This document shows, one piece after another, positions 3,678-10,511 of a stretch of 64,000 nt of DNA (the first letter of the stretch is position 1; the number at the start of each line of letters is the position of its first letter). Under the pieces are notes generated by a model. It was not told where the DNA came from. It saw nothing but the letters and a program-made list of their open reading frames with translations, and did no database searches. A program made the translations under genes and the position numbers. The DNA is from Planctomycetales bacterium (GTDB taxonomy: Bacteria; Planctomycetota; Planctomycetia; Planctomycetales; Planctomycetaceae): assembly GCA_026400835.1 (NCBI GenBank), contig JAPLOA010000076.1, forward strand, positions 124,001 to 188,000. The letters run 5' to 3'.

Positions 3678-4595
3678 ATGTCCGCTGCTAATTCCACATC
3701 TGAGCGAACTCGCCGGACAGTTGCACCGCACATCAAGTTGACCAAATATGACGTTGCGGTGTCGATCTTGATGACAACAGCAACGTGTGCCGGGCTGGCG
3801 TTTATGGTGATGCTGTTCATTTGGCTCTCGAATATGCTTCCCTCACCGGTTTCCAAGCAGGTCACGATGTTGCCTGCCGGAGACGGCGGATGGGAAGATG
3901 GAGATCCCAATGCAACCCCCAACGTTGATTCTCCTGAAGACGCCTCACTCGATCCTTCCATGGCAAATGAAGAAACTGACGTCACGCAACTGGAGGAAGT
4001 CACCGAGCAGGTGATTGAAGTCGCCGATAATGCAGCCACAATGGTTGCGCCCAATGAAAACATGGACCAAAACACGTCGGGGATTCCCGGAAGTGCCGAA
4101 GGTACCGGCGGTCGGCCGTTGGGAAGCGGCGGTCCGGGGCGTGGCGGGGCAAAACGTGAACAGAGATGGTTCGTCGAATTCGGCGACAAGGGTGACCTGA
4201 AAAGCTACGCCACGCAACTGGACTTCTTCGGTATCGAATTAGGTGCAATGTTTCAGGATGAAGGTCGCCTTGTTTACTTGAGTAACCTCGCCCAGGATCC
4301 TCCGACAACCCGTGAAGTCAAGACCGGGGATTCTGAGAAGCGTTTGTTTATGAGCTGGCAGGACGGCAGTGAGCAACGTCGTGCAGCCGACCTCGAACTA
4401 TTCCAGAAGGCCGGGATTGATGCAGGACCTGCCGTTGTGATGCATTTCTATCCGGCTGCAACAGAGGAGATGCTGGCGACAAAAGAATTCGAGTATGGCA
4501 ACAAAGCAGCCACCGAAATTCGTCGTACTTATTTTCAGGTGAAGAAAGCCGGGACAGGATATGAATTTGTCGTCACCCGGCAGCAATTGAGATAA
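3678..4595 (+). CDS. TonB-like single-pass envelope protein
   Basis: A 305-residue protein with TonB/TolA-like architecture. It has a basic cytoplasmic N-terminus (residues 1-25), one transmembrane segment (about 28-52, VAVSILMTTATCAGLAFMVM), a long acidic and Gly/Pro-rich low-complexity stretch (60-155), and a compact alpha/beta C-terminal domain (160-305, starting RWFVEFGDKGDL). No TonB family signature is obvious. Family knowledge: ExbB/ExbD motors drive a third single-pass protein of this shape across the periplasm. It sits directly ahead of exbB and exbD, which supports that role by position only. The start has AGGG upstream. Alternative reading: an unrelated membrane-anchored scaffold. 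Confidence 0.75.
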   Translation: MSAANSTSERTRRTVAPHIKLTKYDVAVSILMTTATCAGLAFMVMLFIWLSNMLPSPVSKQVTMLPAGDGGWEDGDPNATPNVDSPEDASLDPSMANEETDVTQLEEVTEQVIEVADNAATMVAPNENMDQNTSGIPGSAEGTGGRPLGSGGPGRGGAKREQRWFVEFGDKGDLKSYATQLDFFGIELGAMFQDEGRLVYLSNLAQDPPTTREVKTGDSEKRLFMSWQDGSEQRRAADLELFQKAGIDAGPAVVMHFYPAATEEMLATKEFEYGNKAATEIRRTYFQVKKAGTGYEFVVTRQQLR

Positions 4596-4648
4596 CTCGT
4601 TGGCAGATATTGCGATTTCATTTTGTTGTTGATTTTTCGGGATGTCCA

Positions 4649-5356
4649 ATGATCAGTCTTCCAGATTTACTTCTTATGCCCTCAACATTCGCAGCGGCGC
4701 AAGTTTCGACCTTCATGTGGTTAGTTGAGCAATCGATCTGGATCGGTATCGGTGCTTGCGCCGCATTGGGGATGTATTGCGGGATCCTGTTACTGCGACG
4801 TGTTAAGCAGAAGAAGTTTCCCGGCGCGGAAGCGGAGCAGGCGTTCCTTGATGATCTCAGTGAGCGACTGGAGAAGCGGGACTTTGATGGAGCGGCTCAA
4901 GTATGCGATGATCCAGCTGTCTGGAATAAAGCGTTGCCTCAGTTAGCACTGCTGGCGATCCAGAATCGTGGCGAACCGATGAAGAAGATTCGCCAGATCG
5001 TGGGAGAGCGTTTCGAACGCGATGTTCTGGCAAGCCTTGAAGTGCTGAATTCCTGGGTCGGTACAAGCATCAAGACCGGTCCTCAGTTGGGTCTGCTTGG
5101 AACGGTTCTTGGGATGATCAATGCCTTTGCAAAAATCGCGGGGGCAGCGGCATCCGGAGTGGACCCCAAGGAACTGTCTGCGGACATCAGCTTCGCCTTG
5201 TGGACAACGGCAGCGGGAATGGCGATTTCTATTCCCTTGATTGTGCTTCAATCAGCGGCTTCAAACAGTATTAAGAAATTGCAGGAGTCAGTCGACGAAG
5301 GAACTGGACTGTTCCTTGATGAATTCGCAGCGGCCAAGGCTCAAGAAGCGAAATAG
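4649..5356 (+). CDS. MotA/TolQ/ExbB proton channel protein
   Basis: A 235-residue inner-membrane subunit of an ExbB/TolQ-type motor. Transmembrane segments are visible at about residues 25-50 (the FMWLVEQSIWIGIGACAALG region), 145-170 (GPQLGLLGTVLGMINAF, the most conserved family block) and 185-205 (FALWTTAAGMAISIPLIVL). Family knowledge: pentamers of this protein surround an ExbD dimer and convert proton flow into motion. The ATG at 4649 is preferred to an upstream TTG at 4610 because the extra N-terminal residues look unlike the family. It lies 53 bases after the TonB-like gene and 58 bases before exbD. Confidence 0.93.
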   Translation: MISLPDLLLMPSTFAAAQVSTFMWLVEQSIWIGIGACAALGMYCGILLLRRVKQKKFPGAEAEQAFLDDLSERLEKRDFDGAAQVCDDPAVWNKALPQLALLAIQNRGEPMKKIRQIVGERFERDVLASLEVLNSWVGTSIKTGPQLGLLGTVLGMINAFAKIAGAAASGVDPKELSADISFALWTTAAGMAISIPLIVLQSAASNSIKKLQESVDEGTGLFLDEFAAAKAQEAK

Positions 5357-5414: not shown

Positions 5415-5861
5415 ATGTCGGTTGAAGACGATGACGAACCATATGTGCGAAAGAAGCAACCGGAACCGGACACGGAGATCGACATTACTCCGATGATCGA
5501 TGTGACATTCCAGTTGTTGATCTTCTTCATGGTCACTTCGACCATGCAGGGAAATCCACCAGCCGAGATTCCGAAGTCGAGTTCGGGCGGTTCCATTGAA
5601 ACCGCGAAGGTTATCTTGATTGTGATTAAAGCTCCGGTGAGTGCGACGGTTGATCCCGTTATTGAAATTGACAAGAAGCCAACAACTCTGGAAGAGCTTC
5701 GTGCAAGAATCGGCGATGCCGCGGGTGCAAGCACCCAGGGAATCGACGTCATGATCATGGCTGACAGAACTGTCCCGAACCGATTTACGGGAGAAGTCGA
5801 ATCCATGATCGGCGAGATCGAAGGCGTGACTTACCACTTTGCGGTTCAGGACCGACGTTAG
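5415..5861 (+). CDS. ExbD/TolR-type biopolymer transport protein
   Basis: A 148-residue ExbD. An acidic cytoplasmic tail (EDDDEPYVRKK) precedes the signature EIDITPMIDVTFQLLIFFMV. Asp29, in the membrane segment, is the residue expected to carry protons. The rest is a periplasmic domain of normal size. It follows exbB closely and is followed after 15 bases by the kinase-ExbD fusion, whose ExbD part carries a near-identical N-terminal motif, so the two are probably paralogues that could heterodimerise in one motor (inference). Confidence 0.95.
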   Translation: MSVEDDDEPYVRKKQPEPDTEIDITPMIDVTFQLLIFFMVTSTMQGNPPAEIPKSSSGGSIETAKVILIVIKAPVSATVDPVIEIDKKPTTLEELRARIGDAAGASTQGIDVMIMADRTVPNRFTGEVESMIGEIEGVTYHFAVQDRR

Positions 5862-5876
5862 CAGACCTGATTTCTC

Positions 5877-7415
5877 ATGACAGACCTGACTGATAAACAA
5901 CTTGGCGAATTTCACCTGCTGCGCCGACTGGGCAGTGGTGGAATGGCCGACGTATTTCTGGCAGAACAGACCACGCTGCAGAGATATGTGGCAGTGAAGG
6001 TCATGAAGCCTTCTCTGATGGCCCACTCCGGCCAGGATATGGTCAGTCGCTTTAAACAAGAAGCGATGATGGCGGCCGGTCTGAATCATCCCAATATTGT
6101 TCAGGTTTACACGATCGGCCAGGAAGGCGATCTGCATTACATCGCTCAGGAGTATGTCCAGGGCAAAGATCTCGCGAGTATTATCAAGGAACGTGGCAAG
6201 CCGGATATTTCTTCTGCTTTGCATGTCATTCGCCAGGTTGCTGCGGCACTCAAAGCGTCTGGCCAGGCAGGAATCGTTCATCGCGATATCAAACCGGAGA
6301 ACATCCTTGTCACCAAGAAAGGTGAAGTGAAGGTCGCGGACTTTGGTCTGGCTCAACTGGGGGACGGCTCGGGAAGCGAAAAAGAAGGCGTGACGATGGG
6401 CACGCCGCTTTACATGAGTCCGGAACAAGTCAGCGGTCGCGAGCTTGATCCGAGATCAGACGTCTATTCCTTCGGAGTCACCTGCTACCAGTTACTAAGC
6501 GGCGAAACGCCGTTCAAGGGTGCAAACCCCGTCGCGATCGCGATGCAGCATTTGAAGAATCCACCACCGCCGCTTAAAGAAAAAAATCCCGCGTTGCCTG
6601 ACATACTTTGCCGCGTAGTCCATCGCATGATGGCCAAGCGAAGGTCGCTCAGATATCAGTCAGCCGATGAAGTTCTGGAAGACCTCAAGAAACTGGTCAC
6701 CGCACATAAGCAGGGGCGGTCACTGGATCTGGTCAAGCTTCCTCGACTTGAAGAGCTGGAAAAGCTGGCCGAAGAAGAACGTGCGAAGCACCTGAAAGCG
6801 GGAGGCACAATTCCTCCTGAGGGCTTTGATGATGTCGGGCTTGAGCTGCCTGCAGCAGCTCCGGTCAATCAGACGGCCGTAATGCCCAGTCGCTGGGCGG
6901 CAGAAAACTTTGTGGCGGAGCAGCCAAAGAAGAAGGTCGCTCCTGCGCCGGCAGTGATCACTGTTGATGACGATGACGACGTGCCGTACGTTCGAAAAAG
7001 TTCTGGACCGCCGAACGACTTTATTGACCTGACACCTGCAGTCGACGTGACGTTCCAGCTTCTGATTTTCTTCATGGTGACCGCTTCATTCAGTATGCAA
7101 AAAGCGTTTGATGTTCCGCCCGCCAAGAATGTTGAAGGCGTTTCGCTGAATGTCACAGTGCCTCTGGACGAAAGCCCGGGAGTCAAAGTCCAGGTTGATC
7201 CGAATAACGTGATGTATGTCGACAGTAAAAAGGCAACGACCTATCAGGAGATTTATGATCTCCTGACGGCAGAGAAGAATGCAGCATCAGGAGTCAGTGA
7301 TCTGGATCTTGAACTCGACCCGGAGTCGTTTCATGAAATGCGAATTATCGTGATTGATGCGGCAACGCAGGCCGGATTCACTCGCGTGCGAAACAAGATT
7401 GTGGAGTTTCAGTAG
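5877..7415 (+). CDS. Ser/Thr protein kinase fused to an ExbD domain
   Basis: A 512-residue fusion. Residues 11-275 are a complete eukaryotic-like kinase: glycine loop GSGGMADV (19-26), Lys41 in VAVK, HRDIKPEN from 135, DFG at 155-157, SPE at 181-183, and DVYSFG. A charged helical and Pro/Ala-rich linker follows (about 280-362). Residues 363-512 are an ExbD protein: acidic run plus PYVRK, then DFIDLTPAVDVTFQLLIFFM with the membrane aspartate Asp390, then a periplasmic domain. ExbD topology would put the kinase in the cytoplasm and tether it to the proton motor. No frameshift is visible at the junction, so the fusion is real in this sequence. What it phosphorylates is unknown. Confidence 0.93.
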   Translation: MTDLTDKQLGEFHLLRRLGSGGMADVFLAEQTTLQRYVAVKVMKPSLMAHSGQDMVSRFKQEAMMAAGLNHPNIVQVYTIGQEGDLHYIAQEYVQGKDLASIIKERGKPDISSALHVIRQVAAALKASGQAGIVHRDIKPENILVTKKGEVKVADFGLAQLGDGSGSEKEGVTMGTPLYMSPEQVSGRELDPRSDVYSFGVTCYQLLSGETPFKGANPVAIAMQHLKNPPPPLKEKNPALPDILCRVVHRMMAKRRSLRYQSADEVLEDLKKLVTAHKQGRSLDLVKLPRLEELEKLAEEERAKHLKAGGTIPPEGFDDVGLELPAAAPVNQTAVMPSRWAAENFVAEQPKKKVAPAPAVITVDDDDDVPYVRKSSGPPNDFIDLTPAVDVTFQLLIFFMVTASFSMQKAFDVPPAKNVEGVSLNVTVPLDESPGVKVQVDPNNVMYVDSKKATTYQEIYDLLTAEKNAASGVSDLDLELDPESFHEMRIIVIDAATQAGFTRVRNKIVEFQ

Positions 7416-7469: not shown

Positions 7470-10400
7470 GTGGAATCAAAAGTGGCATCTGAAGAATATG
7501 ACGATGAAGTTGAAGAGGTGGAAGCCGATGATCGCGAGCAGTCGCGAGAGGTCATCAGCGAGAAAGCTCGCAGGCAGCTTCGCCGCGGAAAACTGAGTGA
7601 ACTTGCCGAGAAACTGACTGGGGGGCCGGAACGTCCCGGTCAGCAGAAGATTGCACGCTCGCCGGTCGTGATGCTGCTGGTTGGCTGCACTGTCGGCGGA
7701 TCGATTCTGTCGGCGATTTTCTGGTTTATCAATGCACGCAATACAGAAGATCGACTGATCAAAGAAGCGACCGCCTCTCTGGAACAGCAGAAGTATCTGG
7801 ATGCTGAAGGACAATTCGAGAGATTCATCTCGATCTACCCCAAGACGAGTATGACTCCAGTCGCCAAGATTGGCCTGCATCGGGCTCGCGTTGAAAAATT
7901 CATTCTGACAGAAACCCCCGACGTGATTCGAGGACTGAAAGAACTGAAGAGCATGATAGAAGAGTGTCGCGAGCTGGAAGGCTTCGATGCTCAGAAGGAA
8001 AATCTCAAGCGTTACGCAGATCGTCTGACTTATGCCGGTGCCTATGTGGCGGAAGTCGCACAGTCTCAGGAAGCTCTGGACGTCAGTGTGGAGTCTCTTG
8101 AATTACTCAGGAAGTACTCTGGTGAAGGCGGAATTCCTCCTGCCCGCGAACAAGCTCTGGTGGATCGTCAACGAATGGCATCTGCCTCTGTGGCCAAAAA
8201 GAACGACTTTCTTGGAACACTGGCAAAGGTCAAAGAACAACTTGAAGCAGGCGACACAATGGGGGCCATCGGTGCCCGCAACGATCTCATCACAAAATAT
8301 CCCTTGCTGAAGGATGACAAGGATGTCTCCAAACTTCTGCAGGATATTCTGGGGAAGGAGAAGGAATTTGTTGTCCGCACGGAGATTGGAAAAGATGGAC
8401 TTGGCCCCGCTGAAAATGGGTTGGTTCTTCCTTCGCTGGCTCTGACACTAAGAACTCAGGCAACAACGGATCTTTCGTCCCAGGGCCGTGCAGTCTTCTC
8501 GTTTGGTATGGACAGTTGTTTTGCCGTTGATTCGGACACGGGCTCTCCGCTTTGGCGACGTCCAATTGGTGACAACGCACCATTCTCACCAATGCCAGTC
8601 AAAGTTATTGATCCTGCGGGAGTGCTGGTCTATAGCACGATGTCTGAAGAACTGCAGATGCTGTCCCAGAAAGACGGGCAACTATTGTGGCGTCAGAGTG
8701 TCGAAAGCCGTCCGACAGGTGCGCCGACTTTGATTGCCGACAATTTCTACGTAACAACTCAGGCTGGTGAACTCTGGCAAATCGCCGCCAATGATGGGCG
8801 AGCCATTGCCAAGCTGAAGTTCTCACAGTCCGTCATCGGGCCTCCTGCCGTTTCCAGTGACTCTCTGCGTCTGGTGATTCCGGGTGATCAGACAATGGTC
8901 TACACGATCGGGCTCAACCCATTTGCCTGTCTTGCCGTATCCTACATCCCACATTTGACCGGCAGCATCAAGTCCCCTATGGTCACGGCCGGGCGTTATT
9001 TTTTGATGGTGGATAACAATGCTGCAGACAAAGCACGTATCCAGACATTGCAGATGGATGATGCCGGACAACTTAGTTCTGTTTCAGAAGACAGTGTTGA
9101 TGGACAGGTGAACGACCCTTGTCTGCTGCGAGGTTACGAGCTGTTTGTGCCGTCGACACCTCAGCGAGTTACGGCTTTTCGAGTTACGGACGACGCCGGA
9201 CAACCGCCACTGGCAAAAGTCGGAGCCAATCAGCTTGAAGAAGGACTACAAACGAAGATGTTTCTCTTAGCCGGTCCCGGAGGCCAGTTGTGGATGGGCG
9301 GGCGCGATCTTCGTAAATTTCAAACTCGAACGAACACAGTGCTGCTGGATCCGGGAATCACGGCTGAAGGCATCCATTTGCAGCCTATCCAATTCGCCGA
9401 CGAAGCGGTCTATCTGACAACACGCAATCCGAATTCGAACTCGACATTCCTGACCCGTGCTGATCGCGAACAGATGAAGGGAACGTGGCGAACTGTGCTG
9501 GGGTCAAACGTCGTTGCCCTGGCTCCTTCGGCTGGCGGTCAGTCGCTTTTGGCAGTGACAGATTACGGTGAAACCTATAGAGCCCAGATGTCGGAAGTCC
9601 AATCCGGTGGTTTTACAATGGAGTCTGTTAGTCGCTTTAGGCTGCCGGACAAACTCTCCACTGCGGTTGAAGGAGTTGTTCTGAAAGATGGTCGACCGGC
9701 CGCCTGGTGCGGCAGCCCTGAACCTTCAATGTGGACCTTTACAAACACAGGACAACTGGAACGAAAATGGGTGCTCCCGGACAGTCCGCAGATTGCTCCG
9801 GTGACACTCGATGGCGGTGTCGTTTTTGCGATGCCCGGACGGCTGCATATTTCAGCCACTGCAGGAGGAAAGCCTGCCGAAGATTATCGTTCGTCCCAAA
9901 CGGCTGATGGTCAACAACCATGGAAATCGCTGACTGCAATCTCGGCGAATCAGGTCCTGGCCATAACCGGTGACAACTCGTTTATTCGAGTTGAGTACAG
10001 AGCAACACCAAGGCCTCAGTTGACGGAGGTCAGTGTGACGAAAATGCCTCAAATCATCGAAGTGCCACCAGCCTCTGCCAATGGTTTTCTGTTTGTAGCC
10101 ACTGTCGAGGGCAAACTGCTGCTGATGCAGGCATCAAGCCTCGAGATCCTCGCTCAGATTGATCTGGGTGGCGTTCCCAGTGCGACACCGAAGATCGCTG
10201 GAGAGTATGTTTTTGTTGAGGTGGCGAATCAGGAAGTTAAAGTCTTCCATATTGAAAATTCACTGCCTCAAACGGGTGTTTTTCCTCTGGATGGAAATCC
10301 GCTGGCCGGAAATCCGCTGGCACTGAGTGACGGATTTCTGGCCGTACGACGAGACGGGATGCTGATGAAGCTGGACGCTACCGGTGCCACAACGCTTGGT

Positions 10401-10511
10401 TCCAGATCACTTGGGCAGTTGGTTCAACAAGGTCCTCTGGTGATCAATGGCCAGACTCTCGTTGTTGGCTATGACGGCAGCCTGTACCAAATTGATACAA
10501 GCTCTTTGTAG
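7470..10511 (+). CDS. Membrane-anchored TPR and PQQ-like beta-propeller protein
   Basis: A 1013-residue protein. An acidic, charged cytoplasmic N-terminus (1-65) leads into one transmembrane segment (about 70-90, SPVVMLLVGCTVGGSILSAI). A periplasmic helical region with TPR-like repeats follows (95-290, including KYLDAEGQFERFISIYPKTS). From about 330 there are PQQ-like propeller blades (VFSFGMDSCFAVDSDTG.PLW; LLWRQSVES; VDGQ...). The start is a GTG at 7470; a second GTG at 7482 is possible. It lies 54 bases after the kinase-ExbD gene. Family knowledge: such propellers are protein-interaction platforms, as in BamB. Here it may read the periplasmic state for the kinase, or be its target; the acidic cytoplasmic tail is a candidate phosphorylation region (inference). 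Confidence 0.85.
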   Translation: MESKVASEEYDDEVEEVEADDREQSREVISEKARRQLRRGKLSELAEKLTGGPERPGQQKIARSPVVMLLVGCTVGGSILSAIFWFINARNTEDRLIKEATASLEQQKYLDAEGQFERFISIYPKTSMTPVAKIGLHRARVEKFILTETPDVIRGLKELKSMIEECRELEGFDAQKENLKRYADRLTYAGAYVAEVAQSQEALDVSVESLELLRKYSGEGGIPPAREQALVDRQRMASASVAKKNDFLGTLAKVKEQLEAGDTMGAIGARNDLITKYPLLKDDKDVSKLLQDILGKEKEFVVRTEIGKDGLGPAENGLVLPSLALTLRTQATTDLSSQGRAVFSFGMDSCFAVDSDTGSPLWRRPIGDNAPFSPMPVKVIDPAGVLVYSTMSEELQMLSQKDGQLLWRQSVESRPTGAPTLIADNFYVTTQAGELWQIAANDGRAIAKLKFSQSVIGPPAVSSDSLRLVIPGDQTMVYTIGLNPFACLAVSYIPHLTGSIKSPMVTAGRYFLMVDNNAADKARIQTLQMDDAGQLSSVSEDSVDGQVNDPCLLRGYELFVPSTPQRVTAFRVTDDAGQPPLAKVGANQLEEGLQTKMFLLAGPGGQLWMGGRDLRKFQTRTNTVLLDPGITAEGIHLQPIQFADEAVYLTTRNPNSNSTFLTRADREQMKGTWRTVLGSNVVALAPSAGGQSLLAVTDYGETYRAQMSEVQSGGFTMESVSRFRLPDKLSTAVEGVVLKDGRPAAWCGSPEPSMWTFTNTGQLERKWVLPDSPQIAPVTLDGGVVFAMPGRLHISATAGGKPAEDYRSSQTADGQQPWKSLTAISANQVLAITGDNSFIRVEYRATPRPQLTEVSVTKMPQIIEVPPASANGFLFVATVEGKLLLMQASSLEILAQIDLGGVPSATPKIAGEYVFVEVANQEVKVFHIENSLPQTGVFPLDGNPLAGNPLALSDGFLAVRRDGMLMKLDATGATTLGSRSLGQLVQQGPLVINGQTLVVGYDGSLYQIDTSSL

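Follow-up and report, generated by a model that had tools for sequence, protein, structure and literature searches.

A PknB-like Ser/Thr kinase domain and an ExbD domain in one chain, encoded beside ExbB and a second ExbD in Planctomycetales

The DNA analyzed here (hereafter "the window") is a stretch of 64,000 nucleotides from a Planctomycetales bacterium. On its forward strand it carries a cluster of genes that encode, in this order, a protein of 305 amino acids (aa), an ExbB/TolQ-like channel protein, an unfused ExbD (ExbD1), a protein that joins a Ser/Thr kinase domain to a further ExbD domain (ExbD2), a PQQ-type beta-propeller protein, an SBP_bac_5 protein and a protein with a signal-like start. 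ExbD1 and the fusion gene are separated by 15 bases. The same gene order was found in many of the 20 loci that were laid out, some of which show parts of it only; the longest-frame gene caller used for this layout hid some small genes. The features of the cluster, with positions counted from the first base of the window, are as follows.

3678..4595, + strand: 305-aa protein with one helix, transducer-like by layout only (structure model; relatives lie upstream of ExbB)
4610..5356, + strand: ExbB/TolQ-like channel protein, 248 aa (Pfam MotA_ExbB, E = 3.1e-19)
5415..5861, + strand: ExbD1, unfused second ExbD, 148 aa (Pfam ExbD, E = 8.3e-18)
5877..7415, + strand: kinase-ExbD2 fusion gene, 512 aa, single frame
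5910..6650, + strand: Ser/Thr (Hanks-type, PknB-like) kinase domain, residues 12-258 of the fusion protein (Pfam Pkinase, E = 1.3e-49)
6717..7022, + strand: linker, residues 281-382, low-confidence, fast-changing and acidic at its end (AlphaFold2; dN)
7023..7388, + strand: ExbD domain, residues 383-504 (Pfam ExbD, E = 6.4e-13)
7044..7046, + strand: Asp390 codon (ExbD/TolR motor aspartate, present in 18 of 18 fusion proteins)
7470..10511, + strand: membrane-anchored PQQ/BamB-type beta-propeller protein, 1013 aa (Pfam PQQ_2, E = 6.4e-18)
7539..7664, + strand: basic juxtamembrane segment on the cytoplasmic side of the propeller protein, characteristic of the kinase lineage (pattern matches)

The fusion gene reads from an ATG at position 5877 to a stop codon at positions 7413-7415, with no internal stops in the frame, and its product has a kinase plus ExbD architecture. 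It exceeded the Pfam cut-offs for a Hanks-type kinase (169.4 bits; cut-off 31.7) as well as for ExbD/TolR (49.3 bits; cut-off 25.4). In an alignment of 18 fusion proteins (A1; 14 proteins from genus g1 and one each from the genomes G059, G022, G046 and G031), residues Lys41, Glu62, His135-Arg136-Asp137, Asn142, Asp155-Phe156-Gly157, Ser181-Pro182-Glu183, Arg259 and Asp390 were invariant; the residues of the glycine loop of the kinase were mostly nearly invariant, with G031 lacking this part in its frame. The original prediction, i.e., that a complete kinase with its Lys41, HRD, DFG and SPE motifs and a complete ExbD with its membrane Asp390 are encoded in one chain, is thus borne out. Among NCBIfam kinase models, the best for the fusion protein was that of the PASTA kinase PknB/Stk1 (residues 12-279), where the score of 334.6 bits against a cut-off of 450 bits does not place the full-length protein in this equivalog. 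Scores for the NCBIfam TolR and ExbD equivalogs were far below the cut-offs (e.g., 26.5 against 127.3 bits for TolR).

An AlphaFold2 model based on the 18 rows of alignment A1 had a mean pLDDT of 72. The kinase and an alpha/beta domain at about residues 436-508 were modelled with confidence, and a helix was predicted at residues 386-408. Low-confidence segments comprised residues 160-174, 311-394 (pLDDT < 50) and 400-433, and much of the predicted membrane helix is therefore not confident either. When the model was searched with Foldseek, the best matches in the PDB were PknB kinase domains with up to 40% identity, and the best solved matches to the kinase part were StkP, PknA and PknB; as the best 50 matches were all kinases or kinase-containing proteins, this search was uninformative for the ExbD part. 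A sequence profile of ExbD2, on the other hand, found a solved ExbD (E = 9.9e-12). A simple scan revealed a single hydrophobic stretch in the fusion protein, located after the kinase (residues 383-401). Together with what is known of the ExbD family, this predicts a cytoplasmic kinase, one membrane helix and a periplasmic ExbD fold, in agreement with the topology proposed originally.

A survey of planctomycetes for this architecture, as suggested with the original prediction, found single frames of 500 aa or longer with a kinase motif ahead of an ExbD motif in at least 30 of the 170 genomes of the family, representing at least six genera (13 genomes in g1, eight in g43, four in g71, three in g30 and one each in g6 and g15). 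At E <= 1e-10, the ExbD2 profile matched 166 of these 170 genomes among the matches listed. One of the genomes that carry the fusion, G059 (g43), consists of a single 8.92-Mb contig. Residues 280-370, where a stop or frameshift would have spoken against a single chain, are encoded in an uninterrupted frame in the window, in G004 and in at least 30 family genomes. G004 is 97% identical to the window over the 230 aa compared and has an open frame, with a contig edge cutting the N-lobe of the kinase. Five g1 relatives had no complete fused frame; one of these, G006, has a kinase-ExbD2 frame that is broken in the linker (about positions 6084-6105 of locus L045), where a true split and an assembly error would look the same. 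The fusion of G013 (g1) is present and interrupted by a contig edge, the sequences of G015 and G016 (g1) stop within the linker at a contig edge, and the fused frame of G031 is without the N-terminal part of the kinase. Among the matches listed, long frames without a kinase were found in G049 and G039, which have a zinc ribbon instead; in G049 a single frame of 2253 aa (L044:393-7154) starts ahead of the zinc ribbon and extends to the ExbD terminus, and its linker is extremely long and rich in repeats. In a sample of the phylum, 160 of 294 genomes matched the ExbD2 profile among the matches listed, although any ExbD can match this profile, and no kinase motif was found in the frames read of nine stretches from this sample (L194-L202; the longer listed frames were opened). 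From other families of the class, a few of 38 genomes were opened, and distant independent fusions could thus be missed. Inspection by eye of the window and the kinase-type loci found no conserved ribosome-binding site before in-frame ATG codons of the linker; by eye, the gene starts of the cluster itself looked weak as well, which limits this test for an internal start yielding a separate ExbD2.

Beyond what had been predicted, comparison of the ExbD2 genes showed that the position of the kinase is taken by a zinc ribbon in the majority of relatives, that the fusion is clade-wide and that the cytoplasmic part of the partner protein differs in the same lineage. The set contained 80 loci, from which L117 and L122 were dropped (no match to the ExbD pattern), while L105 and L123 stayed outside the ExbD2 trees. 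Of 77 rows in the ExbD2 tree, 39 had a zinc ribbon, 31 were kinase-type (four of these labelled by kinship) and seven had neither, i.e., 39 of the 46 non-kinase rows carry a small zinc ribbon in the kinase position. This label rests on paired Cys motifs, as Pfam zinc-ribbon scores were below the cut-off in the two proteins tested. A GYF-like domain was found in the same position in three of the four opened genomes of another family, f2 (L187, L189 and L193); Pfam matched one of these three domains, weakly (E = 0.03). As the position holds a zinc ribbon, a GYF-like domain or a kinase, the N-terminus of ExbD2 appears as a slot for cytoplasmic modules. The N-terminus of ExbD2 at L058 (G085) is also GYF-like, in place of the zinc ribbon or kinase.

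In the ExbD2 tree, 30 kinase-type rows formed one clade (support 100/100), which is placed beside and among zinc-ribbon forms, and in the kinase tree 28 fused kinases likewise formed one clade (100/100). L127, the locus of the metagenome-derived genome G031, fell outside the main fusion clade in both trees; a single fusion clade including L127 was not rejected (P = 0.47; P = 0.34 with 18 selected fused rows). In a tree of the propeller proteins (26 selected rows), which gives L127 no firm place, all kinase-type rows were together in 24% of bootstrap trees.

The kinase is the most constrained part of the fusion protein. When the window was compared to 12 selected fused relatives, dN ranged from 0.035 to 0.152 for the kinase, from 0.097 to 0.318 for ExbD and from 0.194 to 1.083 for the linker (with synonymous sites near or at saturation), and the ranking kinase < ExbD < linker was found in all 12 comparisons. 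The lowest rate of amino acid-changing substitutions in the kinase is as expected for a working enzyme. The nearest non-fused kinases, found in five genomes, are stand-alone proteins that are 51-57% identical to the window kinase, and the three of these that were searched against Pfam gave no match after the kinase. A sixth match (L149 in G031; 48% identical) was missed by the first motif search and is outside the trees. In a simple scan of two stand-alone kinases, a strong hydrophobic stretch after the kinase was found in L147 and none in L150. The latter (G000:C78:122852-123682) is a stand-alone paralogue in the genome of the window, 55% identical to the fused kinase and of a type that recurs in other genomes. 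Overall, the window genome has 43 kinase matches at E <= 1e-20. The simplest reading of these data is that a stand-alone kinase was duplicated and then joined to ExbD2.

The genes upstream of the fusion encode candidate partners of an ExbD. An ExbB/TolQ protein is encoded beside the fusion gene (positions 4610-5356); the profile of its family matched solved TolQ (E = 5.8e-14), and both threonine-bearing membrane motifs were aligned and kept. Domain order, predicted topology and the ExbB and unfused ExbD genes upstream support the original proposal of a candidate kinase within a TonB/Tol-type motor. The equivalog scores for TolR, TolQ and ExbD were far under the NCBIfam cut-offs for Ton or Tol-Pal proper. 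The 305-aa protein (positions 3678-4595) had no Pfam or NCBIfam match that would assign it to a TolA or TonB transducer family. Its model consists of a helix, a low-confidence middle part and a folded C-terminal domain, i.e., a TonB/TolA-like layout. A TonB/TolA fold was considered for the protein, for which no PDB fold matched at E <= 0.001. The 305-aa protein represents an orphan family found upstream of ExbB. Elsewhere, the window genome has eight ExbD matches (the seven non-fusion ones in frames of 149-174 aa), eleven MotA/ExbB matches and one OmpA-domain match (G000). With a single OmpA-domain match a standard Pal is doubtful, and the standard Tol-Pal system may be missing from this genome.

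Downstream of the fusion, the propeller protein has one hydrophobic stretch (residues 66-84) and weak TPR-like matches (YbgF and BamD). Three of five propeller proteins from zinc-ribbon lineages, as compared to none of three from kinase lineages, exceeded the Pfam cut-off for FHA. An FHA-like profile built from these three Pfam-positive proteins matched 21 of 29 zinc-ribbon loci and four of five further non-kinase loci, as compared to none of the 25 kinase-type loci, with the window and G059 being negative as well; it was also negative in four truncated and seven unassigned loci, and loci without a long downstream frame (including L075 and L123) were outside this scoring. A pattern for the basic juxtamembrane segment, composed after the sequences had been seen and with L127 left out beforehand, was found in 20 of 27 kinase-type propeller proteins as compared to 0 of 29 zinc-ribbon ones; three kinase-type loci (L067, L069 and L071) failed segment extraction, although they show a similar segment. 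No Ser or Thr in the segment was invariant except for the serine directly before the membrane, and a T-x-V-M-P-like linker motif was present in just 10 of 27 kinase-type loci. Since most of this pattern goes back to one evolutionary event, the associations of the kinase with the FHA-like domain and with the basic segment are not independent; these differences amount to one or two events on the tree.

The residues by which canonical FHA domains contact phosphothreonine include a Ser and an Arg. In the FHA-like domains found here, the Ser is absent in 24 of 25 and the Arg in 14 of 25, so that most canonical contacts are not preserved. A writer-reader exchange, in which a kinase would be found where an FHA-like phosphothreonine reader is absent, is therefore weakly founded, as the contacts are mostly lost and nearly the whole kinase lineage belongs to a single clade; the distribution gives a weak hint of such an exchange. 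Such FHA-like domains, located N-terminally and with their contacts mostly lost, were seen in the propeller proteins of L050:6146-9808, L049:6247-9939 and other zinc-ribbon loci.

Several known systems resemble parts of this cluster. According to PMC6778125, ExbD begins with a short segment in the cytoplasm, which is followed by one helix and a periplasmic domain; two ExbD helices are located within an ExbB pentamer, Asp25 is essential, and conserved threonines of ExbB form a ring. The cluster shares with Ton (ExbB-ExbD) and Tol (TolQ-TolR) an ExbB/TolQ-like channel, an ExbD fold with an invariant membrane Asp, a one-helix transducer-like protein encoded in the cluster and profiles that match solved ExbD and TolQ. 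It differs in that a whole kinase takes the place of the short N-terminus of ExbD (PMC6778125), that two different ExbD genes are present and that the 305-aa protein matches no TonB or TolA family. The gliding motor AglR-AglQ-AglS of Myxococcus xanthus likewise combines one TolQ-like protein with two ExbD/TolR proteins, but for AglQ (162 aa) and AglS (194 aa) no domain other than ExbD/TolR is listed (PMC3169522). In one further motor system that was compared, the transducer is a vWA protein and the word "kinase" is absent from the main text of the paper. Receptor kinases such as PknB and StkP share with the fusion protein a cytoplasmic kinase followed by one membrane helix (predicted here) and a periplasmic domain, whereas the ectodomain is ExbD here and PASTA there, and the fusion protein scores under the PASTA-kinase cut-off. 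According to PMC11032199, planctomycetal Ser/Thr kinases form large families with many accessory domains (105 accessory-domain groups and 307 architectures), and membrane regions are typically present in 70-80% of them; the main text of that paper contains none of the terms "ExbD", "TolR" and "biopolymer". Searches of open-licence PMC papers on ExbD, TolR, planctomycete kinases and motors, judged by titles and the openings of abstracts, gave no description of a kinase-ExbD fusion; the original remark that no characterised example was known agrees with these literature searches.

The reading that we favor, at slightly better than even chances, is that the PknB-like kinase is attached to an ExbB/ExbD motor on its cytoplasmic side and that the two exchange state. 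The fusion protein would be the ExbD2 subunit of a proton-driven envelope motor made of ExbB, ExbD1 and ExbD2, in which an intact PknB-like Ser/Thr kinase would have taken the place of the cytoplasmic module of ExbD2, this module being a zinc ribbon in most relatives. From what is known of the family, we infer that the Asp390-bearing helix of ExbD2 inserts into the pore of the ExbB pentamer, probably paired with ExbD1; a pair of ExbD1 and ExbD2 within one pore is plausible. With the ExbD2 helix in this position, the kinase would be flexibly tethered on the cytoplasmic side. Most likely, kinase activity would then respond to assembly, to the composition of the dimer or to force acting on the periplasmic part, and the kinase would phosphorylate cytoplasmic parts of its own complex as well as nearby proteins. 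Catalytic activity, coupling between motor and kinase, its direction and the substrates are likewise things that we only infer here; as to direction, our guess leans towards the state of the motor or envelope acting on the kinase. PknB-type kinases are activated by pairing. A narrower version of the favored reading, in which the motor would be a force or proton-gradient sensor that uses protein phosphorylation to inform the cytoplasm of its mechanical or energetic state, is conceivable but doubtful; here it would depend on the dimer that occupies the pore (ExbD1-ExbD2 or ExbD2-ExbD2) whether two kinases come together and activate one another.

The protein could also be a receptor kinase with a borrowed ExbD fold that sits outside a working motor, with ExbD2 serving as a mere anchor and periplasmic sensor. 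PASTA kinases, for comparison, have an ectodomain that binds the cell wall, the periplasmic domains of TolR and ExbD can pair and that of TolR binds the cell wall. The ExbD part moreover changes faster than the kinase in each of the 12 comparisons, the nearest kinase paralogues are stand-alone and one of the two that were scanned (L147) has a hydrophobic stretch after the kinase. The invariance of Asp390 and of much of the pore helix, as well as ExbB and ExbD1 still adjoining the fusion, argue against such a receptor, which we regard as unlikely. A chain that simply combines two independent functions, with motor and kinase exerting no mutual influence, would be in keeping with the long, low-confidence and probably flexible linker and with the abundance of similar kinases in the window genome (43 matches, as given above). 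Retention of the fusion in at least six genera, the strong constraint on the kinase and the different cytoplasmic part of the propeller partner in the same lineage make this quite unlikely.

It is likewise improbable, in our estimate, that the kinase is a one-way clutch or brake by which a cytoplasmic signal leads to phosphorylation of ExbB, ExbD1 or the propeller protein and thereby switches the motor. The kinase would be permanently placed beside all three of these proteins, and the basic juxtamembrane pattern is confined to kinase-type loci (20 of 27 as compared to 0 of 29), but no conserved phosphosite was found in the juxtamembrane segment of the propeller protein. Finally, named records with the fusion are metagenome assemblies, the G006 frame is broken in the linker and G031 has no N-terminal kinase part in frame, all of which would fit an assembly or frame artefact. 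The presence of one long frame in at least 30 genomes, including one assembled as a single 8.9-Mb contig, rules out chance, assembly and frame artefacts for the clade, and an artefact of either kind is considered exceedingly improbable.

To our knowledge, ExbB/ExbD and TolQ/TolR motors have been regarded as machines that produce no signalling output themselves. A kinase on a pore subunit, kept across at least six genera, would constitute a physical link between such a motor and cytoplasmic signalling, and motor and cell signalling could act on each other directly via the built-in kinase. The cytoplasmic N-terminus of ExbD2 serves as an exchangeable module slot that holds a zinc ribbon, probably a GYF-like domain, or a kinase. 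Moreover, the presence of a kinase on one ExbD would allow a direct test of whether two different ExbDs share one pore.

ExbD1 and the ExbD2 part of the fusion protein are 41% identical over 95 columns. With regard to the residue at one position of the helix, Gln or Leu was matched between ExbD1 and ExbD2 in 23 of 23 kinase-type loci (one typed by kinship) and in 13 of 16 zinc-ribbon loci, scored where the pattern found both genes and with few independent changes behind the matching. An acidic-then-basic stretch before the membrane helix looks similar in ExbD1 (positions 5415-5480) and ExbD2 (positions 6960-7040).
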